The notes beneath the pieces are model-generated. The model saw only the letters and a program-made list of their open reading frames with translations. It did not search any database and was not told the origin of the DNA. A program made the translations under genes and the position numbers. Below, piece after piece: positions 40,368-53,265 of a stretch of DNA of 64,000 nt. Each line of letters starts with the position of its first letter. The stretch's first letter is position 1. The stretch comes from an uncultured Chlorobiaceae bacterium (GTDB lineage: Bacteria; Bacteroidota; Chlorobiia; Chlorobiales; Chlorobiaceae): the NCBI GenBank assembly GCA_903939765.1, contig CAJAIK010000094.1, forward strand, positions 1-64,000, written 5' to 3'.

Positions 40368-42281
40368 TTATCCCTCAGGCGGAAGTTCAAAGAGCATGCA
40401 CTCGCCCGGTTTGCAGCTTACCTCAAGCCGATGCCCTTTTACAGGATACTCCGTTTCGCTGATCAGGTCAAAGAAAGAGCCGTTTTCCACGCTGAATTCA
40501 AGAAAGCCGCACCTTGCATCGTTTATGTTACTGTTTCCAATAAAAAGAAGTGAGCGGCCAGCCATTGTTCTCATGACGGCAAAAAGCTCCGGCTGGCTGG
40601 TATAGGGGATGGCTATTGAGCCGGTTTCGCCCGAGAGTACCAGATCGAGGTAGCGTGCACGTATGTCAAGAATTTTGCGGATATAGCTGTTTAGAGGAGC
40701 GAGACCGTTGCTCTTTGCCCAGTCAAAACTCAATGCACTGAAAAGCGGGAGTTTTTCAGGAGGATAGAGCGTCCGGTCTTCATCATTGAAATTCAGGCCG
40801 AGGTTTACCGGATACCATTCACAGAGTTCCATCCCCGAATGGAGAAAAGGGATGGCAGGCAGTATGGCACTGAGCGTGAAGATAAAGATCGAGTGGTTGC
40901 GCCCTGCTTCCTGGCGGGGATAGCGGAAACAGACGCGCGGGGTGTTGTGATTTTCTCCCGTTCCGAAAAAGGGCAGTGCGACACCGGTTTTGTTCAGGTG
41001 GTTCAGTAACCCCCGTATAAAGACAATGTCGTGGATGACAAAAGGCAGAGAGCCGAAGACGGCATTGAACCCTTCGTTGCGAATTTCAGGAGTCGGATTG
41101 AAATTTTCATCCCAGAAGGCAAAATCCGCCCTTTTTTCGCGTGCCTTGCAAACAATCGTCTGTTTGAGACGCGTCGGCAGGGCGTGACCCATATCGATCA
41201 TTGCACCGTCAATCAGGTACTCATCCTGAAAACTGGGGATGATACCTGAAATCTCCTCCCAGAGGCTGCTGTTGAAGGTTGCAGGATTGTCGAGCGCGCT
41301 GTCGTACATCCTGATGGTGTTGTAGGCAATGTAGTTGAATGCCTCGTGGGTGTGCATTTTCAGGTAGGTGACATCACTCCAGGCCGGTTGCTGGTCGTCG
41401 GGGGGCCAGTCGGAGAAGGCACTTGCAATACGGCACGCCGTTCCGTCTTCAGCAATACCCTGAAGGGTGTCGTCCTCTCGATAAATTGTTACCGGTTGCT
41501 CAACGAACTGCTCACGGTATTCTGATGGGGGGCAGGGAAGATTGTGTAACTCATGGCGATCAACAACCTCATAAATGCGGTTGAGTGTCTGCTGATCAAA
41601 ATGGGGCGGCCCGTAGTTGCGGGTACGCTCATTATTTTTCAGCCAGTAAAACCATTCAGGATGTTCTGTTATCCAAATGCTGTCAACAGAGGTCGTTCTG
41701 AAAACAAACTCCAGAACAACGTGCATGTCGAGAATATGTGCCGCCTCAACAAAGGCTTTGAGAAGAAGTTCTGCTGAAAGCCCGAGTGCCGGTTCAGCGA
41801 GCAGGGGATCGAGTTTCCTCGGGTTTTTAACGGCATAGGGGGAGCCGAGAGAGCCTTTTCGGCTTTTTATGCCTATTTCGGTGAGTGGAAGAAGGTAGAT
41901 GGTATTTGCGCCAAGATTTTTGATATACGGCAGGAGCGCGATGGCTTTCAGGAGGGTACCGGTCTCCCTGAAGCCGCACGAAAGTGGTTCAGGGCTGATG
42001 GAGCCGTCGCCGTCATGGTCAAAAGCGGTTGCGAGACGGACAAAGAGGTTATAGACGATCGCCTCGGCTCTCCAGTCGCCATCTTTTTGTTTTTGCGAAT
42101 TGCCCCCGTTGTTGTCGAGGATGGTTTCGATGATCCGGGCAAAGTAGCTGGCCGGGTCGACCAGTTCGGTACCGCTCTCTTTTCCGTTCCAGATTCCAGG
42201 GACAGAGTAGTTGTTTCCGGTATCTGGAGTTTGAAGGCTTTTCAGCGCATGAAGAAGCGATGCAAGGTGGGTTTTCTGCAA
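40368..42281 (-). CDS. Alpha-amylase (GH13)-like catalytic domain protein
   Basis: [60 protein letters not shown]. Confidence 0.8.
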
Positions 42282-42626
42282 CGTGGTGCTATTGGTTTTT
42301 GGGGATGTAATTCTTATTTGACAGCCAATGTACTAAAGATTTTACTGCTAAAGTAGAGATGACCGACATTGGAAAGTTGAACGGCCCGGTTCATCAGTAC
42401 CGATATGTTTGAAGCAAAGGTCAAAGCGCTCTATGAGAATAGCTGCCGTGTACGCGGAAATGATGAGTTATCTATTAAATATTAAAATACTTACAAGAAA
42501 AACGTCCGCGCCTCATGTCTCCGTTTTTTTGTCAATTAGTTTTGGTTGCACGGTTTCCGAGCCAACTTGCTCAAGGGAACCAGTCTGGCCACGACCACCT
42601 TTGAGAGCATCGTGATTGAAATCCAC

Positions 42627-42682
42627 CTCAATGTCTGACTCAAAATTTTGGCTTTGACGGCCCTTATGAATTATTCAGGTTA
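42627..42682 (+). repeat. Left copy of 56-bp imperfect direct repeat bracketing the Tad locus
   Basis: ctcaatgtctgactcaaaattttggctttgacggcccttatgaattattcaggtta; 49/56 identical to 52479..52534 by manual alignment. Confidence 0.9.
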
Positions 42683-42899
42683 AGTTAGTGCAGGATTTTT
42701 AGCGGTGTCCATGAAAATATAGCAACTCCAGTTATTGTTTTTGCTATTTCTCTTGTATATATTACTTCAGTATTTCGCGGTCAATCTTTTTTTTAGAGGT
42801 TTCCTGCCCAATAGGTGGGTATGGAGTAAGGACGCACTCACAAGGCGGTGTTTCATTGTGGGGGTAACGATTAACTAATTTCATCGGGAGGCAAATATT

Positions 42900-43067
42900 A
42901 TGCTGAAAAATTTATTCTCTGTCAAATCACAAAAAGGCGTAACCTTGATTGAGTACGCTTTGATTGCGGCTCTGGTTGCTGTTGTTGCGATCACAACTCT
43001 TACTGCGCTTGGAGTTAGTTTGAATGGCATTTTTACCTATGTCTCGAGCAAGCTCGTTCATCCGTAA
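42900..43067 (+). CDS. flp: Flp/Fap-type pilin, 55 aa (absent from the supplied ORF track)
   Basis: ATG at 42900 after tcgggaggc RBS: MLKNLFSVKSQKGVTLIEYALIAALVAVVAITTLTALGVSLNGIFTYVSSKLVHP*. G|VTLIEYALI prepilin cleavage motif. Confidence 0.92.
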   Translation: MLKNLFSVKSQKGVTLIEYALIAALVAVVAITTLTALGVSLNGIFTYVSSKLVHP

Positions 43068-43088
43068 ATCTTTTTTACAGCCTAAGCA

Positions 43089-43904
43089 TTGAAACTACCA
43101 ATCTTTGTTCTTGCCATCGCACTCACTTTGGGAGCGGTGGCAGCTTTTATCGCCGCCCGCTGGATGAGCGTCGCCCAAACTTCGGTGTCCAGTGTCGTCA
43201 TTGTGGAGCAGCCCATCGAAGCTGGCAAAGCTATTACGGCTGATCAGATTAAGAGCATTGATTGGCCCGGTTCTGCCGTTCCGCACGATGCATCCACTCG
43301 CACCACTGATGTGGTGGGTCGAATTGCCCTTGTGCCCATGATGCCGGGCGAGCCTGTTTTACCTGGCAAATTGGCCGCAAAAAACGCGACCGGTGGCTTA
43401 TCGTCAATCATACCGGAGGGAAAGCGCGCTATTACCGTTCAAGTTAATGAGGTGATTGCGGTTGCCGGATTTGCCCTGCCAGGCTGCTATGTGGATGTTT
43501 TGGTTAGCAGCAAGGACGCCAACCAACAGCCCTTTTCGCGAACAGTGCTGTCGCGTATCAAAGTATTGGCCGCGGCCCAGGAAACCACTGCAAACCCCAC
43601 TGAACCAAAAGTGGTCAATGCCGTAACCCTTGAGCTTACGCCATACGAAGCCGAAAAGCTCGACCTGGCCCGCAACATCGGGGTAATTTCTCTCGCCTTG
43701 CGCAACGAAATCGACATCAGCGAAACCAACTCCGCAGGTGTACGTTTGCCCGATATTATTTATTCACAGTCCACTCGTGCAACCCCCTCTTCGCAGGCTG
43801 CACAAGCGGCACCGGCTCCCCACACTGTGGCGGCACCTTCGCGTCAAAGCATTGGACCCGAAGAAATCCGTGGGACAAGCCGCCAACCTGTAGCCACACG
43901 CTAG
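43089..43904 (+). CDS. cpaB: Flp pilus assembly protein CpaB/RcpC
   Basis: VVIVEQPIEAGKAITADQIKSIDWPGSAVP (SAF-like), IIPEGKRAITVQVNEVIAVAGFALPGCYVDVLV. Start codon is TTG. Confidence 0.9.
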   Translation: MKLPIFVLAIALTLGAVAAFIAARWMSVAQTSVSSVVIVEQPIEAGKAITADQIKSIDWPGSAVPHDASTRTTDVVGRIALVPMMPGEPVLPGKLAAKNATGGLSSIIPEGKRAITVQVNEVIAVAGFALPGCYVDVLVSSKDANQQPFSRTVLSRIKVLAAAQETTANPTEPKVVNAVTLELTPYEAEKLDLARNIGVISLALRNEIDISETNSAGVRLPDIIYSQSTRATPSSQAAQAAPAPHTVAAPSRQSIGPEEIRGTSRQPVATR

Positions 43905-43909
43905 CCAAC

Positions 43910-45574
43910 ATGCACATGAATTTGACATGCCTAATGCGTTTGGCCTGCAGGATGAGTGCTCTTTTGGCGCTTGCGGGCACCCTGCCCGTGGCAGCAATGG
44001 CCTCTCCTGAACCTGTCGTTAAAAAGGTCGCGCCTGAACCTGTCGCGAAAAAAGCTTTGCCGACACCTGTTGTCAAAAAGGCTTTCCCCATACCTGTGGC
44101 TAAAAAGATCTTGCCCGCCGCACCTGTGGTCAAAAAGGCTTCGCCTGAGCTCGTGAGGAGAAGACACGACTCGCGCGTAGCTGCCGTGTCCGCCGTGTCC
44201 GCTCCATCAATCTATCGTCTCCCTCTGGGCGAATCCAGGGTCTACCGGTTCGCGCAACCCATCAGACGCGTTGCCGTGGGCGACTCCCAGGTGGCCGATT
44301 ATATCATGCTTAGCCGCTTCGAGCTCTATCTGCTGGGGAAAAAACTGGGTTCAACCAATCTTGCTGTATGGGACCAAAATGGCAATGTAACGTCCACGCC
44401 AGTACAAGTCAGCCGCAGCACAACAGCTCTGCAAGCCTTCCTGAAAGTTCTCTTTCCAAATGAGAACGACATTAATATCTTTTCTTGGGGTCAGGTGCTG
44501 GTACTGTTCGGTTCTGTGTCTGACGCCCTGGTTGCAGAGAGCGTCTCCCGTCTGGTAACAGCGTATCTGGGCGGATCGGTTCCGGGCGGCAATCCGGAAT
44601 CTGCCCTTATCGGCAGTGATCCCTCAGCATTGAAAGGCATAATTAGCGAGAATAATAGGGTTTCTATACCTCTCTCTGTGAGCGTGAACACGAGCGGTAC
44701 GTCTGGTGGGGCCAATATTGTCTCAGGCTCTGCGGGAGCTGACAGCACGCGCGGCGTGGTTAATCTTCTCAAGATTCGCAATTCGCAGCAAGTCCGGCTC
44801 GAAGTCTGCATTGCCCAGGTGTCGAGAAGTTTCCTCGAATCTTTGGGCGTCAGTTTTTTGAAAGCCTCGGGTGATGCACAGGGCGGCACCCTTTTGTCAG
44901 GGTTTGTCAGTAGCGCTACGCTTAATAACCTCTTGTTCGGTAGGCTGGGTCAGACCGCTGGGATCAAGGTGGTCGCGGATCGCAAGCCCTCTTTGTTCAG
45001 GGTTCTGGCCGAGCCCACCATTGTCACCATGAGTGGTAAAGAGGGGTATTTCCTGATTGGAGGCAAAGTTTTTGTGCCCGTCAGGATCGATAATACTTCA
45101 GGATACGCCAAAATTGAATACGAACCACAAATCTATGGCGTGGGTTTACGCTTTATGCCCATCGTACAGGATGCCGGCCATATTTCGCTCAAGGTGGTGT
45201 CTGAGGTTTCCGAGCCTGAGACTGGAGTTATCCTTGCGGGTAGTACAACAAATTGGCCCGCGTTTAAACTGAACACCGTTTCTACCTCCGTCCAGATGAA
45301 CGAGGGTGAAAACCTTGTTATTGGAGGACTGAAGCTCGACAAGCTTGCCAATACGATAGACTCGGTGCCCTTGCTGGGTGAAATTCCCATTCTTGGCGCG
45401 CTTTTCCGGGACACCCAGAAGAATGCCGAGAAGACCGAACTCATGGTTATTGTTCGCCCCAGCCTGGTCAAAGGCAGCGTCATCGCGCCAGAGCTTCCGA
45501 CGGACAAATTTGTCCCTCCTACCCGAAAAGAGCTTTTCCTCGATGGAAAGCTTTATGGTTCAGGGGTGAAATGA
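43910..45574 (+). CDS. cpaC: Tad pilus secretin CpaC/RcpA
   Basis: LPLGESRVYRFAQPIRRVAVGDSQVADYIMLSRFELYLLGKKLGSTNLAVWD; secretin core EPTIVTMSGKEGYFLIGGKVFVPV, VPLLGEIPILGALFR. Confidence 0.92.
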   Translation: MHMNLTCLMRLACRMSALLALAGTLPVAAMASPEPVVKKVAPEPVAKKALPTPVVKKAFPIPVAKKILPAAPVVKKASPELVRRRHDSRVAAVSAVSAPSIYRLPLGESRVYRFAQPIRRVAVGDSQVADYIMLSRFELYLLGKKLGSTNLAVWDQNGNVTSTPVQVSRSTTALQAFLKVLFPNENDINIFSWGQVLVLFGSVSDALVAESVSRLVTAYLGGSVPGGNPESALIGSDPSALKGIISENNRVSIPLSVSVNTSGTSGGANIVSGSAGADSTRGVVNLLKIRNSQQVRLEVCIAQVSRSFLESLGVSFLKASGDAQGGTLLSGFVSSATLNNLLFGRLGQTAGIKVVADRKPSLFRVLAEPTIVTMSGKEGYFLIGGKVFVPVRIDNTSGYAKIEYEPQIYGVGLRFMPIVQDAGHISLKVVSEVSEPETGVILAGSTTNWPAFKLNTVSTSVQMNEGENLVIGGLKLDKLANTIDSVPLLGEIPILGALFRDTQKNAEKTELMVIVRPSLVKGSVIAPELPTDKFVPPTRKELFLDGKLYGSGVK

Positions 45575-46017
45575 CCACCATGCGCGCAGATATGGCCATG
45601 CTCAAGGCTCTGGTAAATGAGCACGCTCCATGTCAAAAGGGCAGTGTGTTGGTCGAATTTGCGCTCATCCTGCCCGTGTTTCTTCTTTTCCTCTTTGGGG
45701 TGATTACTTTTTCTGTAGCCCTGTACGACAAAATGGTGCTCACCATGGCCACCCGGGAGGGCGCGCGTGCTGGAACCGTGTATGTTGCAAACCAGACCGA
45801 CGACACGATCATATCCCGCGCCCGATACGCAGCCTCGCAGTCCTGTCTGAACATCATCAACTTCGGGACTAACACCCCTGACGTACCCCTTCCTACTATT
45901 GAGACTCTTGGAACCAACAGAATCCTCACCGTCACAGCTACCGTCAATTTCAGCGGAGTCTACATTTTTTCGGACCCTTTGTTGATCTCGGCCCAAACCA
46001 GCATGAGACTTGAATAA
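45571..46017 (+). CDS. tadE: TadE-like pseudopilin
   Basis: KGSVLVEFALILPVFLLFLFGVITF; TREGARAG. Confidence 0.88.
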   Translation: MTTMRADMAMLKALVNEHAPCQKGSVLVEFALILPVFLLFLFGVITFSVALYDKMVLTMATREGARAGTVYVANQTDDTIISRARYAASQSCLNIINFGTNTPDVPLPTIETLGTNRILTVTATVNFSGVYIFSDPLLISAQTSMRLE

Positions 46018-46019
46018 CC

Positions 46020-47045
46020 ATGGCACGCTCGCACCACACCTTCAAACTGCTGCACGGACAGCGTGGCGGTGTCGCTATTTTGTTTGCCCTGTGCTTGCCG
46101 GTGTTGCTTGCTTTTGCCGCTTTGGCGATTGACTTGGCTCGCCTCAACCTGACCAAGGCTGAACTTCAAAACGCGGCCGACGCTGCTGCTCTGGCCGGCG
46201 CTCGTTCTATCAGCGACTCATCTACTGTGGCGTCGGACCAGCCTTACAACTGGTCAGCAGCCACGGCCACTGCGCTGGTTTTGGCTCAACACAACCTCGC
46301 CAATGGCGCGCTGATTCCGATTAGGAATGTGACCATTGAAACGGGTTACTGGAACCTCAATGACCCCTCGCCCGGACTGTATCACCCTGGCACACTCGGC
46401 GAAGGCGATGTCCCTGCCATCCGCGCCACGCTTGCGATGCCCTTGAATTTGTTGTTCGCCCCCATTATGGGTATTACCGAAAGCAACGTTCAAGCCAGTG
46501 CCATTGCCGTACTACCCGCACCCGGGGGCGGTACGGGCATATTTCCCTTGGTCATCAGCAGAATCATGTTCGACACTTATTGGAACGCAGTTACACGCCG
46601 CCCTGCGCTGGATCCCGCCACAGGGAAGCCCTACATTCTCAATATTGGCTCCATCTTCAGCGGCGTCAACTCGGGCACCTGGACCACCTTTACGACTGAA
46701 GACAACGACGTCACAACATTGCGGCAACTCATCCAACAAGGCAACCCCACCAACTTATCCATAGGCATGGACACCTGGATCCAAACGGGCGTCGATGAGG
46801 CCTTGTTCGCAGATGTCCCTGCCAATAAAGATGTTCCTGTACTCGTTGTTGACAACGTTCAGGTTGGCTCCAGGCAACCTATTGTCGCGATTGCCGGTTT
46901 TCATATTATCTGCACCGTTGAAATTGGTGGCAAAAAAAATATTTGTGGTCAGTTCATCGACAACGTGCTCGTCAACACTACCAACCCGGGCACCGGCAAT
47001 GGGCTGCCGCTCGGTGCCTATAGTCCACCCATACTGGTCAATTGA
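46020..47045 (+). CDS. tadG: TadG-like pilus-associated protein
   Basis: QRGGVAILFALCLPVLLAFAALAIDLARLNLTKAELQNAADAAALAGARS. Confidence 0.85.
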   Translation: MARSHHTFKLLHGQRGGVAILFALCLPVLLAFAALAIDLARLNLTKAELQNAADAAALAGARSISDSSTVASDQPYNWSAATATALVLAQHNLANGALIPIRNVTIETGYWNLNDPSPGLYHPGTLGEGDVPAIRATLAMPLNLLFAPIMGITESNVQASAIAVLPAPGGGTGIFPLVISRIMFDTYWNAVTRRPALDPATGKPYILNIGSIFSGVNSGTWTTFTTEDNDVTTLRQLIQQGNPTNLSIGMDTWIQTGVDEALFADVPANKDVPVLVVDNVQVGSRQPIVAIAGFHIICTVEIGGKKNICGQFIDNVLVNTTNPGTGNGLPLGAYSPPILVN

Positions 47046-47051
47046 AAACAC

Positions 47052-48197
47052 ATGAACATTGTTGCTTACTCTCCCCAGCCCTGGGAGGTTCCCGATACAC
47101 AACTTGAACTGGCTCAACACCAACTGGTTCGAGTGGTGGGCGAGTTAGGGGTCATGGTGCGCCAACTCACCGCCCGTAACCCCGACCTCGTATTTCTCGT
47201 GGGTTTTGAACCCACCGAGCCCTATTACATACAAGAGGTAGAGAAACTCTGCCTCGCTCTACCGCATGCCGCCATCGTGGTCCTGCACCCACAACCACAG
47301 CCCGAACTTTTGTTATCTCTTATGCGCGCTGGTGTGTATGAAGTCATTGTCGATATCGCCCCCGAAACCCTACAACAAGTTATCGAACGCGCAAACCTTT
47401 GTGCCACAGGCGCGAGCATTCGCCTGGGTCGGGTGTTTGGATTTATCTCTTCCAAAGGAGGGGATGGCAGCTCTTGCATAGCGGCCAACTTAGCCTTTGC
47501 GCTCTCTCAAGAGCCCGGCACCCGCGTGCTGGCGATCGATGTCTCTTTACCCTTTGGCGACCTTGACATGTACCTCACCGGAGATAACCACCCTCAAGAT
47601 CTGGCTGACATCTCCAGTCAATCCGACCGGCTCGACCAGTCGTTACTCGACAGCATGGTGCAGCACCTCAGCCCCACGCTCGACCTCATTCCTTCGCCCA
47701 CCACGTTCGAAAAAATCGTTCATATCGAACCCGAGCGCGTGAGCGAACTTGTTCATACTGCCGCAAACTTTTACGACTACATTCTGGTTGACTTTGGCTC
47801 ATCTCTCGATCAGGTCGTCATCCTGGTTCTCGAGCACCTCGACGAACTCTGCATTGTATCCACCCCATCGCTGCCGTCGCTGCGCCGGGCGGCTCAACTG
47901 CTCAAACTCTGGAAAGAATTTGAAAAACCCATGTTGTGCATCGAAATTGTTCTCAACCGTGCCGACACAAGTCTTCCCATCTCCAGTACCGAAATCGAAA
48001 AAGTCATCGGCAGGCCAATTAACCATCGCTTCCCTTCCGACCAGGAAGCCGTGCAAGAATCCCTCTTGATTGGTCAGCCTGTCTTGCAAGTAGCACCCAA
48101 ATCCAAACTTTCAAAAACCATCGTCGACTGGGCCGCGCACCTCACAGGCAGCAGTCATCGTAAACGTTCGTTATGGCAACGCTTAAAGACCAAATAG
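47052..48197 (+). CDS. cpaE: CpaE/TadZ-like pilus assembly ATPase
   Basis: Receiver-like N-terminus then RVFGFISSKGGDGSSCIAANLAFALSQEPGTRVLAIDVSLPFGDLDMYL (MinD/ParA-like). Confidence 0.88.
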   Translation: MNIVAYSPQPWEVPDTQLELAQHQLVRVVGELGVMVRQLTARNPDLVFLVGFEPTEPYYIQEVEKLCLALPHAAIVVLHPQPQPELLLSLMRAGVYEVIVDIAPETLQQVIERANLCATGASIRLGRVFGFISSKGGDGSSCIAANLAFALSQEPGTRVLAIDVSLPFGDLDMYLTGDNHPQDLADISSQSDRLDQSLLDSMVQHLSPTLDLIPSPTTFEKIVHIEPERVSELVHTAANFYDYILVDFGSSLDQVVILVLEHLDELCIVSTPSLPSLRRAAQLLKLWKEFEKPMLCIEIVLNRADTSLPISSTEIEKVIGRPINHRFPSDQEAVQESLLIGQPVLQVAPKSKLSKTIVDWAAHLTGSSHRKRSLWQRLKTK

Positions 48198-49594
48198 CTC
48201 GCTGGAACCTCTCCACCAAACGGGTTGTAGTTCTTCCTGTATCGGCACCTGCACAACCCTATGTCGTTGAGGCTCTAACTTCGCCTGCACCAGCACCGGC
48301 GATAAAAATCAAAGCATCCCCAGGGGTTGACTATTACGCGACCAAAATAAAGTTGCACCAACAGTTGCTTACCCGCATCGACCTCAACTCTATCGAAAGC
48401 CTGACCCCCGAGCAGTTGCGCAACGAGCTTGGGGTCTTGCTTGTCGAGCTCATCGAAGAAGACGAAATCCGCTTCAATCATCAAGAGCGCGCCAGATTGG
48501 TGGCTGACCTCAAAAACGAAATCATGGGTCTGGGCCCTTTGGAACCCTTGCTCGCTGACCCCAACATTTCTGAAATCATGGTCAACGGCTACCAAAATGT
48601 CTATGTTGAAAAAAACGGATGCATTCAGCCCACCGACATCCGATTCAACGATGACGCCCACCTTATGAAAATCATCGACAAAATCGTCTCTCATGTGGGG
48701 CGGCGCATCGATGAATCCTGCCCTATGGCCGATGCCCGCCTCCCCGATGGATCGCGCGTCAACGCCATCATTCCGCCATTGGCTCTTGACGGCCCCATCC
48801 TCACCATTCGGCGCTTTGCGGTTGTGCCCATGCAAATGCACGACCTCATTGAAAAAAACACACTCACACCCGCCATGGCCGAACTGTTGTCAGCTCTGGT
48901 TAAAGTCAAATGCAACATCATCATTTCCGGTGGCACTGGTTCGGGTAAAACCACGCTGCTCAACATTCTATCGAGCTTTATTCCCACCGACGAACGCATT
49001 GTCACCATCGAAGACACTGCTGAACTGCAACTTCAGCAAGATCACGTCATTCGCCTGGAGACGCGCACGCCCAACATCGAAGGTAAAGGCGAAATCACCA
49101 TGCGCGCACTGGTGAAAAACTCCTTGCGCATGCGGCCTAACCGCATCGTGCTGGGCGAGGTCCGTAGCTCCGAGGTGATCGACATGTTACAAGCCATGAA
49201 TACCGGGCACGAGGGCTCGCTTACCACCATTCACGCCAACAGCCCGCGGGATGCGTTGGGCCGGCTCGAAAATCTGGTGGGCATGGGTGGCATCAGTATA
49301 CCCAGTAAAGCCCTGCGCCAGCTCATTGCCGCGTCGATTCACTTTATCGTCCAAATCGCACGACTAAGTGACGGTAGCCGCAGGGTCGTCAGCATCGAAG
49401 AAATCAGCGGCATGGAAGGCGATATCATTACCACCCAGGAAATCTTTTGCTACCAGCGCACCGGCACTAACCCGGACGGATCCGTGCAAGGGATATTCAG
49501 AGCCACGGGTCTGCGTCCCAAAGTGGCTGAAAAAATACGCACCTACGGCATCAGCCTCAGTGACGGCATGTTCGACCCCGGCGTCAACGACTAA
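48173..49594 (+). CDS. cpaF: Tad secretion ATPase CpaF/TadA
   Basis: IIISGGTGSGKTTLLNILSSFIPTDERIVTIEDTAELQL, MRPNRIVLGEVRSSEVIDMLQAMNTGHEGSLTTIHANS. Confidence 0.95.
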   Translation: MATLKDQIARWNLSTKRVVVLPVSAPAQPYVVEALTSPAPAPAIKIKASPGVDYYATKIKLHQQLLTRIDLNSIESLTPEQLRNELGVLLVELIEEDEIRFNHQERARLVADLKNEIMGLGPLEPLLADPNISEIMVNGYQNVYVEKNGCIQPTDIRFNDDAHLMKIIDKIVSHVGRRIDESCPMADARLPDGSRVNAIIPPLALDGPILTIRRFAVVPMQMHDLIEKNTLTPAMAELLSALVKVKCNIIISGGTGSGKTTLLNILSSFIPTDERIVTIEDTAELQLQQDHVIRLETRTPNIEGKGEITMRALVKNSLRMRPNRIVLGEVRSSEVIDMLQAMNTGHEGSLTTIHANSPRDALGRLENLVGMGGISIPSKALRQLIAASIHFIVQIARLSDGSRRVVSIEEISGMEGDIITTQEIFCYQRTGTNPDGSVQGIFRATGLRPKVAEKIRTYGISLSDGMFDPGVND

Positions 49595-49608
49595 CCTACG
49601 AGCACACC

Positions 49609-50565
49609 ATGACGACGTTTTTGATTTCATTTTTTGCTTTTGTGGCAGTCATGCTGATCATGCTTCTGGTCTATGGGGTGTGGGCCCAGTTTTTAGGCCG
49701 CCGCAATAAAGCCAAAAAAAAGCGCATGCAGTCCATCCACAATGCTGTTCACTTGGGTGGGCAAAGCCTCAGCAGCGCGCAGGACAGTGCATTTGAAGCC
49801 TGGCTACGCTCCCGCTCCCGAACATTTGAGCAATTCGAAAAGCTGCTCCAACGTGCCCAAAGCCCGCTCACTGCCGGGCGATTAATGGGTCTCATGCTTC
49901 TCTTGTTTACGGTGGTTGTGGTGTTGGCTCTTCTGTTCCAAACAAACCTCATACTCCTGCTGGTGCTGGCCGTCGTCATTGCCAGCACGCCAGTTCTGTG
50001 GTTATCTCGACAATCCAACCAACGCCGTCAAGCCTTCGGAGAAAAACTTCCGGAAGCGCTCGACTACATCTCACGTGCAATGCGCGCCGGCCACGGCCTT
50101 ACCTCGGCCATCGGCATGGTTGGCAAGGAGTTCCCCGGCCCCATAGGTCACGAATTCAAAACCGTCATCGATGAAATTGGCTTCGGCATCCCATTCAAAG
50201 ACGCGATCGGCCAGCTCGCCGATCGCGTTCAAACAAGCGACCTCAATTTCTTTGTTATCTCGATCATGATCCAGCACGAAACTGGCGGCAACCTCACCGA
50301 ACTACTCGATGGGTTGGCCAGTACCTTGCGCGAACGCGTCAAACTGCGCGGCAAAATTCGCACGCTCTCATCCGAAGGGCGCGCATCAGCCTGGATACTG
50401 GGTAGTATGCCATTTGTGCTCATCGTTTTGCTCGCGCTCATAAACCCCGGCTACATTTCGCTGCTCTGGACCACTCCACAAGGCCAGAAGCTCCTCCTCA
50501 TCGGTGGTGGGCTCATGGCCGTTGGCATCCTTCTGCTCAACCGCATCATCCAGATCAAGGTTTAA
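49609..50565 (+). CDS. tadB: Tad membrane platform protein TadB
   Basis: T2SF domain: LPEALDYISRAMRAGHGLTSAIGMVGKEFPGPIGHEFKTVIDEIGFG, MIQHETGGNLTELLDGLASTLRER. Confidence 0.92.
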   Translation: MTTFLISFFAFVAVMLIMLLVYGVWAQFLGRRNKAKKKRMQSIHNAVHLGGQSLSSAQDSAFEAWLRSRSRTFEQFEKLLQRAQSPLTAGRLMGLMLLLFTVVVVLALLFQTNLILLLVLAVVIASTPVLWLSRQSNQRRQAFGEKLPEALDYISRAMRAGHGLTSAIGMVGKEFPGPIGHEFKTVIDEIGFGIPFKDAIGQLADRVQTSDLNFFVISIMIQHETGGNLTELLDGLASTLRERVKLRGKIRTLSSEGRASAWILGSMPFVLIVLLALINPGYISLLWTTPQGQKLLLIGGGLMAVGILLLNRIIQIKV

Positions 50566-50583
50566 CCCTAACCACGTTGCACT

Positions 50584-51531
50584 ATGCAAGTCATCCTGCA
50601 AATCCTGATCATCGTGCTCACAGGTGCCGCTGTCTCCTCGGTTGTGCTCGTGTTGTACAATTGGCTGGTCGACAACGCCCTCAAAAAACGCCTTACCCAA
50701 ATCGTTCGCCAAGGCTGGGCCCCAGCCAGCCACTCCTTGTCCAAGAGGGCCAATACCCACAAAGTTGCCGCAGTCATCAACATCCTCTCTAAACTTTCGC
50801 TCCCGGAAGAAGGGTGGCAAAGCTCCAGCATTCAGCTCAAGTTTTTGCAAGCCGGCATTCGTAACAAAAACGCACATCAATACTACTTCGCCGTTAAAAC
50901 CCTGCTCACACTGGTGCTACCGGTGGTGCTGGCTTTATTTATACATTTGACCCGGCCCCACATTCACTTCGCTCCATCCATGCTCCTTGTGCTGCTCACA
51001 GCCGCAGCAGGCTACTATCTGCCCGAAATATTTCTTCGCTTCATCATTCAAAAACGTATCGAACGCATGCGCAAAAGCCTACCCGACATGATCGACCTCA
51101 TGGTCATCTGCACAGAGTCGGGCATGAGCATCGATGCCGCCATTGCCCGCATATCGCACGAAATGGCCCGTACCAACCCCGACTTGGCCCAGGAGTTTTA
51201 CCTCTCAGCCCTCGAAATGCGCGCCGGCGCTACACGCATCGAAGCCTTGCGCAACCTGGCACTGCGCTCACGCCTCGAAGACCTGAAAGACCTCATCTCC
51301 GTACTCGTACAGTCCGACAAATTTGGCACCAGCCTGGCCGAATCGTTGCGCGTGCAGTCAGACATGATGCGCTCACGTCGCACCCAACGCGCCGAAGAGC
51401 TTGCCGCTAAAATCCCCGTCAAAATGTTGCTGCCGCTCATCTTGTTTATTTTTCCGACTCTCATTATGGTGCTGCTGGGGCCGGCAATCATTCAGGTAAT
51501 TCAAGTCTTCTCGAAACATCCCTTGCCATGA
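50584..51531 (+). CDS. tadC: Tad membrane platform protein TadC
   Basis: T2SF domain: SLPDMIDLMVICTESGMSIDAAIARISHEMARTNPDLAQEFYLSALEMRAGATR. Confidence 0.92.
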   Translation: MQVILQILIIVLTGAAVSSVVLVLYNWLVDNALKKRLTQIVRQGWAPASHSLSKRANTHKVAAVINILSKLSLPEEGWQSSSIQLKFLQAGIRNKNAHQYYFAVKTLLTLVLPVVLALFIHLTRPHIHFAPSMLLVLLTAAAGYYLPEIFLRFIIQKRIERMRKSLPDMIDLMVICTESGMSIDAAIARISHEMARTNPDLAQEFYLSALEMRAGATRIEALRNLALRSRLEDLKDLISVLVQSDKFGTSLAESLRVQSDMMRSRRTQRAEELAAKIPVKMLLPLILFIFPTLIMVLLGPAIIQVIQVFSKHPLP

Positions 51532-52430
51532 GCCTCAGCTACATGTTGCATGACTGGCCATGGTGGTTGGCCGGCGCGTGGATTGGCCTGTGGCTGGTGT
51601 CTTTGGCCCGCATCATTCCGCGCAAGGTGTTGCAGTGCGTAGATGCCCCTCTGCACGCATGGCTGGGCCCCGGTGGCGGCCTTGAGCAGCCCATTCCGCT
51701 GGCCCGACGTATTTGGGTGCCGGTGCTGAACGCCAGCTTGTGGGCCTATGCGGCCGACACCGCCGGTCACCCGGCATTCTGGGCCGCGCTATCAGGGGCC
51801 GGTTTGGCCAGTACTCTGGTATTGCTCGCCCTCATTGACTGGGACACCACCCTGTTGCCAGACTGGGTTGTCTTGCCGCTGTGGGTGGCGGGCTTGGCCA
51901 GCAGCTATGCAGGGTTTACCCCGCACAACCTGCTCGTTAGTGCAGCATCTGCCGCAGTGGTGCTGGGCCTGATGGGTGGGCTTGCCTGGGTGTTCCAGCG
52001 CCTCAAAGGCGAAAGTGGTGTCGGTAGTGGTGACCTCAAACTCCTTGCCGCCCTGGCCACTTGGTGGGGCCTTGTCGGCGTGCTTTACATCGTGTTGTGG
52101 GGCAGTGTGCTTACCGTCGTCTGGTATTTGGTGTGGCGCCGTTTCAAAGGCTTTAGCCCCCAAGCCGAATGGCCATTTGGTCCCGCCCTTGTGGTGGCCG
52201 CACTGGTATGGGGCTTGCTGGCGGCTTATTCTCCCGCCCGGCTCGACGCGGATGCTTCCTTTGACCGACGACGCCCCTCGATGCACGGCGTTCTGGGACA
52301 GGTGAGCAATGGTTATCTCATGGAAAAGAACATTACCGCAGTACGCAGATCGTCTTCAAACGCTGTCACGCTTTCATCTGTCAGGCTCAGAGCCGGAGCA
52401 AGCCTCGCAACGTTGCCAGTTTACAAGTGA
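51528..52430 (+). CDS. Prepilin peptidase (A24/CpaA-TadV-like), C-terminal tail probably chimeric
   Basis: Catalytic Asp motifs DWDTTLLPDWVVLPLW and GVGSGDLKLLAALATWWG; overlaps tadC by 4 bp. Confidence 0.85.
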   Translation: MSLSYMLHDWPWWLAGAWIGLWLVSLARIIPRKVLQCVDAPLHAWLGPGGGLEQPIPLARRIWVPVLNASLWAYAADTAGHPAFWAALSGAGLASTLVLLALIDWDTTLLPDWVVLPLWVAGLASSYAGFTPHNLLVSAASAAVVLGLMGGLAWVFQRLKGESGVGSGDLKLLAALATWWGLVGVLYIVLWGSVLTVVWYLVWRRFKGFSPQAEWPFGPALVVAALVWGLLAAYSPARLDADASFDRRRPSMHGVLGQVSNGYLMEKNITAVRRSSSNAVTLSSVRLRAGASLATLPVYK

Positions 52431-52478
52431 CCGCGTTCTTGTTCTCCATATTCGTTACATTGCCACAGCCAGGACTAT

Positions 52479-52534
52479 CTCAATTTCTGACTCAAAATTT
52501 CGGCTTTGGTGGCCCTCACGAATTATGCAGGTTA
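52479..52534 (+). repeat. Right copy of 56-bp imperfect direct repeat bracketing the Tad locus
   Basis: ctcaatttctgactcaaaatttcggctttggtggccctcacgaattatgcaggtta; same orientation as 42627..42682. Confidence 0.9.
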
Positions 52535-53265
52535 TGAAGAACATTCGGATGACTGTTGAATATGATGGAACCTCTTTTGCCGGATGGCAACGGCAGTCAG
52601 GTTCTTTTGTAACCGTTCAGGGGGTGATTGAGGCGGCTCTTTGCAAAATTTTGCAGGAACAGGTCTCTCTTGCGGCTGCCGGAAGAACCGACAAGGGGGT
52701 TCATGCCAGAGCCCAGATGGCCAATTTTAATACAGATTCACTCATGGAGCCTGCCAGAATAGCCCATTCACTGAATTCGCTTCTGCCAAAAACCATCAGG
52801 ATAAGCGACCCGGCGGAGGTTGATTTTGATTTTCATGCCCGACATAGTGCACGGGAGAGGCAGTATCGCTATTTTCTTCTTGAGCAGCCGTCGGCGATTT
52901 ATGGCAGGTTTGCGGGCTGCTCGTTCGGCAAGCTTGATCTTGCACTGATGCAGCAACTGGCCTCTCATCTTGTCGGAACGCACGATTTTTCTGCATTTTC
53001 CAGGGAGAACAGGGATAATCCCGGACGAATCTGTACGGTAACTGCCTGTAAATGGTATCAGCATAAGCATTATCTTGTGTTGCGCATTTCAGCCGACCGT
53101 TTTTTGCGAAGTATGGTGCGCTACCTCGTTGATGCCATGATACGTGCTGGAAAGGGGATGCTTTCCACTGAAGAGTTCAGCAGGATGCTTGAAAGCGGCG
53201 TTATGACGAGTCAGCTCAATCCTGCATTCCCGGGGGGGCTTTTTCTGTGGAAGGTGAGCTACTGA
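52534..53265 (+). CDS. truA: tRNA pseudouridine(38-40) synthase
   Basis: MTVEYDGTSFAGWQRQ, AAGRTDKGVHARAQMANF, DFSAFSR. Start at 52534 (MKNIRMTVEYDG) preferred over ORF start 52309, which runs through the repeat. Confidence 0.94.
   Translation: MKNIRMTVEYDGTSFAGWQRQSGSFVTVQGVIEAALCKILQEQVSLAAAGRTDKGVHARAQMANFNTDSLMEPARIAHSLNSLLPKTIRISDPAEVDFDFHARHSARERQYRYFLLEQPSAIYGRFAGCSFGKLDLALMQQLASHLVGTHDFSAFSRENRDNPGRICTVTACKWYQHKHYLVLRISADRFLRSMVRYLVDAMIRAGKGMLSTEEFSRMLESGVMTSQLNPAFPGGLFLWKVSY

Follow-up and report, generated by a model that had tools for sequence, protein, structure and literature searches.

A complete Tad/Flp (type IVc) pilus operon in the genome of an uncultured Chlorobiaceae bacterium was almost certainly acquired horizontally rather than by vertical descent, judging from gene trees and comparison with relatives. 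The operon lies between an amylase-like gene and truA in the window, the 64,000-nt stretch of contig CAJAIK010000094.1 that was analysed. It probably came from another member of the Chlorobiaceae and was brought into this site bounded by two direct copies of an IS1380-family insertion sequence (IS), in the manner of a composite transposon. A composite transposon is the simplest reading of the locus. Boundaries, junctions, the empty site of relatives and phylogenetic incongruence are direct observations; from them we infer transposition as one unit, its timing, the donor and the function of the pilus.

Organization of the insert

A sequence-only reading of this DNA had described a Tad locus delivered as a discrete island at 42627-52534. 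The island is indeed discrete, but with a transposase relic on the outer side of the left repeat the insert is wider than that span, and its extent is corrected to approximately 42345-52531 (10.2 kb). The same reading had placed all Tad genes (flp, cpaB, cpaC, tadE, tadG, cpaE, cpaF, tadB, tadC and a prepilin peptidase) between the repeats, and each of them has Pfam matches:

40371-42281, minus strand: amylase-like gene (Pfam Alpha-amylase); left flank of the target site, outside the insert; divergent neighbour of truA in nine relatives
42282-42344, no strand: left remainder of the ancestral amylase-truA intergenic region, to ...GATTTTA (alignment with the empty sites of relatives)
42345-42623, plus strand: IS1380-family copy A (left), a stop-ridden, internally deleted transposase relic (PF13701, tblastn; alignment start 42347)
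42624-42679, plus strand: inverted repeat that forms the right end of IS copy A and closes with CAGG; repeat 1 of the earlier reading (aligned with IS ends of other Chlorobium genomes)
42680-42899, plus strand: upstream region of the Tad operon, starting with the TTAA target of IS copy A (alignment with genome G026, locus L073)
42900-43067, plus strand: flp pilin (PF04964, 6.7e-15)
43089-43904, plus strand: cpaB/rcpC (PF16976, PF08666)
43910-45574, plus strand: cpaC/rcpA secretin (PF00263, PF13629)
45571-46017, plus strand: tadE (PF07811)
46020-47045, plus strand: tadG-like gene (PF13400, PF09977)
47052-48197, plus strand: cpaE/tadZ (PF13614)
48173-49594, plus strand: cpaF/tadA ATPase (PF00437, 4.8e-65)
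49609-50565, plus strand: tadB (PF00482)
50584-51531, plus strand: tadC (PF00482)
51528-52430, plus strand: prepilin peptidase, tadV/cpaA-like (PF01478; alignment with nine relatives)
52249-52308, plus strand: remnant of Tad-downstream DNA, 77% identical to sequence of genome G012
52329-52415, plus strand: IS1380-family copy B (right), transposase fragment of aa ~289-319, ahead of an internal deletion (transposase alignment)
52422-52531, plus strand: right end of IS copy B, ending CAGG and including repeat 2 (IS-end alignment)
52532-52535, no strand: TTAT target tetramer adjoining IS copy B and overlapping the start codon of truA at 52534 (relatives have the empty site ...CTCTTTATGAAGAAC)
52534-53265, plus strand: truA (PF01416); right flank of the target site, outside the insert

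By its Pfam content the operon holds the full set of a Tad/Flp pilus locus in one place; no tadD-like gene was seen in the insert. The Tad genes have stayed intact and presumably build an adhesive pilus for attachment to other cells or to surfaces. The conserved part of the prepilin peptidase reaches to ~52250; the usual stop is lost, and the frame reads through for ~60 aa into non-homologous and IS-derived DNA. The G012 counterpart of the remnant at 52249-52308 is found ~0.8 kb beyond the prepilin peptidase of that genome, past a 231-aa gene, and this match to downstream sequence means that part of the operon-downstream DNA was lost before IS copy B. At the right flank the insertion falls right at the start of truA, and the native upstream region of this gene is replaced by the IS end. 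The open truA frame extends upstream across the IS relic and reaches an ATG at 52309 (52309-53265).

IS1380-family ends at both boundaries

The two repeats, at 42627-42682 and 52479-52534, are direct, 56 nt long, 88% identical and 9852 nt apart. Their presence around the Tad locus had been claimed from a manual alignment and is borne out, with a degenerate 48-nt core of the repeat giving 0 matches in 100 shuffles. The whole-genome comparison that had been proposed as a check found only two significant copies in 2.98 Mb, which rules out a ubiquitous dispersed repeat.

The repeats are the right ends of two IS1380-family insertion sequences in the same orientation. Elsewhere in the genus, related sequences mostly end at ...GAATTATTCAGG and are variable beyond; homologous ends in G031 and G028 read CAGG, followed by a variable tetramer. 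At locus L064 the sequence ahead of the homologous end encodes the C-terminus of a DDE_Tnp_1_4 transposase (PF13701, E = 4e-33), which identifies the repeat as the right end of an IS1380-family element. The guess of an IS1380-type terminus in the sequence-only reading was thus correct, and transposase relics precede both repeats. A coding role for the repeat was dropped because the homologous copies are IS ends; its frame LTQNFGFGGPHELCRL resembles the C-terminus of a beta-ketoacyl synthase.

The only PF13701 match in the genome of the window (42360-42548) sits directly before repeat 1, contains four stop codons and has an E-value of 2.1e-4 in spite of its decay, a match below the curated cut-off. 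This left relic is 54% identical over 89 aa to an intact transposase of genome G088 (tblastn E = 1e-20 to 4e-22) and corresponds to approximately aa 319-420 of that protein. The right relic corresponds to approximately aa 289-319 and is followed by the IS right end. Copy A has lost its 5′ two thirds together with the left inverted repeat. No intact IS1380-family copy was found in the genome and no left inverted repeat in the window, where right ends alone survive. IS copies in other genomes (L087, L088 and L093) have both left and right inverted repeats; L093 is flanked by CTAA on both sides, and the flanks of L087 and L088 are without a matching tetramer. The elements resemble IS1380-family composite transposons and ISEcp1-type units in their PF13701 transposase, in their ends (CCTGAAT...ATTCAGG) and in the 4-bp duplication seen in one intact-ended copy of a relative, L093. 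Unlike these systems, the present locus has dead fragments in place of both copies, and what they enclose is a whole pilus operon of ~9.5 kb.

Empty site and junctions

Comparison of the amylase-truA site across relatives had also been suggested, and it resolves the insertion to the base. In nine relatives, including the sister genome G024, the amylase-like gene and truA are divergent neighbours 75-123 bp apart and the site between them is clean and empty, reading GATTTTATTTCTCTTTATGAAGAAC in G024. In the window the left junction is GATTTTA/CTGCTAAAG and the right junction is CAGG/TTATGAAGAAC, the latter being exact (CAGG/TTAT-truA). The left side lacks the beginning of the IS, the target duplication and 11 bp of the target (counted with the right-hand TTAT). 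At its inner side IS copy A ends CAGG/TTAAGTTAG..., and from TTAA on the sequence is the DNA found upstream of flp in G026. From 42680 onward it is 75% identical over 225 nt to this IS-free upstream DNA (L073), in which TTAA precedes the same sequence.

Another Tad copy, different from that of the window, is found in another species, G012 (L067, C66 2259-18289), ~6 kb from the same truA, past a symporter gene and a Maf-like gene. It is a second, independent landing in the neighbourhood.

Route of insertion

Cargo between two same-orientation relics of one IS is the arrangement of a composite transposon. The unit formed by IS copy A, the Tad operon and IS copy B would have moved as one and inserted at the TTAT before truA after the split from G024. 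Decay of both ISs would have followed, removing the left inverted repeat, the TTAT on that side and 11 bp of the target, and leaving the operon fixed in place. Divergence between the two IS ends is 12.5%, no greater than the core four-fold divergence from G024 (0.13-0.21), and is compatible with insertion after that split. Because TTAT survives on the right alone, the position of its left partner having been lost with the 11 bp of target and the IS start, we describe the insert as IS-bounded and infer its transposition, rather than call it a proven transposon. Further observations count against a composite unit. IS1380 is absent from the other Tad loci examined in the genus, where no source composite transposon was found, and the two IS relics break off at nearly the same IS position (~347 and 353), a coincidence not expected of a plain composite transposon.

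A less probable but possible route begins with an IS1380 copy already resident upstream of truA, with which a circular or linear IS1380-Tad molecule, horizontally acquired, recombined. Such recombination would likewise leave the Tad operon between two direct IS copies, with no need for the whole unit to transpose. What remains of the two IS copies meets at IS position ~347/353 with no overlap, as would result from the opening of an IS-Tad circle at that point, and IS1380-type elements are present in many genomes of the genus. However, this coincidence of breakpoints could be due to chance (a few percent, as a rough estimate), and none of the nine relatives has a resident IS at truA, so we regard the resident-copy route as unlikely. 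It cannot be separated from composite transposition on present evidence.

ISEcp1 is a member of the IS1380 family, and in a one-ended mobilisation like that of ISEcp1 copy A would have mobilised the downstream Tad genes from its own left end to an alternative right end beyond them. The order of IS, right inverted repeat, cargo and second right end fits such an event. Yet the right boundary has transposase coding sequence 5′ of the terminal repeat and hence represents a second IS copy, which makes one-ended mobilisation improbable.

Origin of the Tad genes

Open reading frames inside the insert have a GC of 0.551 and a GC3 of 0.623, compared with 0.491 and 0.534 outside. Their codon-usage distance is 0.309, against 0.08-0.147 for every similar-sized contiguous block elsewhere in the window. 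The composition shift noted by eye is therefore real when computed, but it provides no evidence on this insertion, being common to most Chlorobium Tad loci: GC3 in those of other Chlorobium genomes is 0.58-0.70 (0.72-0.76 in G062), whatever the core (0.47-0.63). The GC3 and codon shift marks the Chlorobium Tad family and not this event. Composition as proof of a recent foreign origin was dropped for the same reason.

A wider CpaF tree gathers the Chlorobiaceae into a single clade (97/99), beside a Comamonadaceae copy and within a Burkholderiales group (100/97). The CpaF of the window shares 76-87% identity with Chlorobiaceae copies and no more than 66% with betaproteobacterial ones. The earlier impression of a proteobacterial-type Tad locus holds at depth, where the clade nests among Burkholderiales, but not for the Tad of the window, which sits inside the Chlorobiaceae clade. 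Because of this placement the immediate source was most likely another green sulfur bacterium of the Chlorobiaceae, and the tree suggests that entry of the Chlorobiaceae Tad from the Burkholderiales side was an older event. A direct recent transfer from a betaproteobacterium would account for the high GC3 and for a Chlorobiaceae clade that adjoins Comamonadaceae/Burkholderiaceae, but is very improbable given the position of the window CpaF within that clade and its low identity to betaproteobacterial copies.

Within the genus, the core tree built from flanking genes pairs the window with G024 (100/100, path 0.068). The Tad tree separates the two by a path of 0.25 and rejects their forced pairing, with AU p values of 0.0017 (all outgroups) and 0.0036 (one outgroup). 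The phylogeny asked for by the sequence-only reading hence rejects vertical descent of the Tad genes and, with the IS relics at both ends and the empty site, upholds its claim of horizontal acquisition. With an empty site in relatives and an incongruent phylogeny, the insert bears the marks of a horizontally acquired genomic island. At four-fold sites the window differs from G024 by 0.166 in core genes and 0.245 in Tad genes, and from G017 by 0.615 and 0.279, respectively; the overall ranges are 0.17-0.62 for core and 0.20-0.28 for Tad. This flat Tad divergence is suggestive, is not a clock, and could reflect constrained codon use that lowers the Tad figures. dN/dS values of 0.18-0.44 between the window Tad genes and those of relatives indicate constraint over the whole comparison, from which the time since insertion is not separable. 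The CpaF type of the window occurs in 17 of the 65 genomes of the genus, at various chromosomal places. G024, G010 and G026 carry their Tad loci at an exonuclease-linked site, where the genome of the window has none. Vertical inheritance of an ancestral Tad operon, lost from the amylase-truA site in relatives and flanked by unrelated repeats, could draw on the occurrence of this CpaF type in 17 genomes, but is scarcely credible in view of the clean, conserved empty site in nine relatives, the location of other Tad loci elsewhere, the rejected pairing with G024 and the contradictory divergence pattern.

Tad loci of the genus and known systems

Tad loci of the genus often share a downstream set consisting of a 231-aa protein, a 616-aa protein and a glycosyltransferase-like protein of ~500 aa, all named by eye. 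The latter two accompany many Chlorobium Tad loci (L070, L073, L208, L067 and L072) and are absent from the window; this pair is possibly a pilus-associated glycosylation or matrix module. Two divergent Tad operons lie back to back in G011 (L075/L076, C26 ~36.7-57.4 kb), and two others are ~158 kb apart in G062. Two flp-like pilin genes occur in the Tad loci of G016 (L072), G021 (L074) and G069 (L206), and in G021 these genes adjoin a pair of IS3-like transposase genes recognised by eye.

That single-locus Tad systems are frequently transferred is established (PMC6668835). The insert shares the single-locus operon of the Tad or widespread colonization island (flp, rcpA/C, tadZ, tadA, tadB, tadC, tadE, tadG and prepilin peptidase), and differs from it in being bounded by IS1380 relics whose junctions are resolved to the base. 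Green sulfur bacteria are known to carry Tad loci, in a patchy distribution, and a proposed role of the pili there is to build syntrophic contacts (PMC7762298); Chlorobi are also listed with Tad loci elsewhere (PMC4793230). Gene clusters of the same kind, with a proposed role in cell-cell contact, are found in Prosthecochloris ethylica and Chlorobium luteolum/Pelodictyon phaeoclathratiforme (PMC7762298). Unlike the window, they have no mobile-element boundaries reported in that paper.

IS1380 was discarded as a general vehicle of Tad genes, as the other Tad loci examined show no trace of it. The flat four-fold divergence, the common GC-rich signature and the several chromosomal sites make it plausible, on balance, that the Chlorobiaceae Tad is a genus-wide shared pool that has passed between species more recently than these split, with IS1380 composite units as one vehicle and the window as a fossil of it. 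The mobility of Tad loci was already known; added here are one transfer whose boundary element and target site are resolved, and a pattern that points to a Tad pool common to the genus. The vehicle and exact joints of Tad spread are seldom preserved, and at this locus one can still make out the target site, the bounding element and the phylogenetic incongruence. The locus thus offers a usable test case for the movement of adhesion machinery among green sulfur bacteria.
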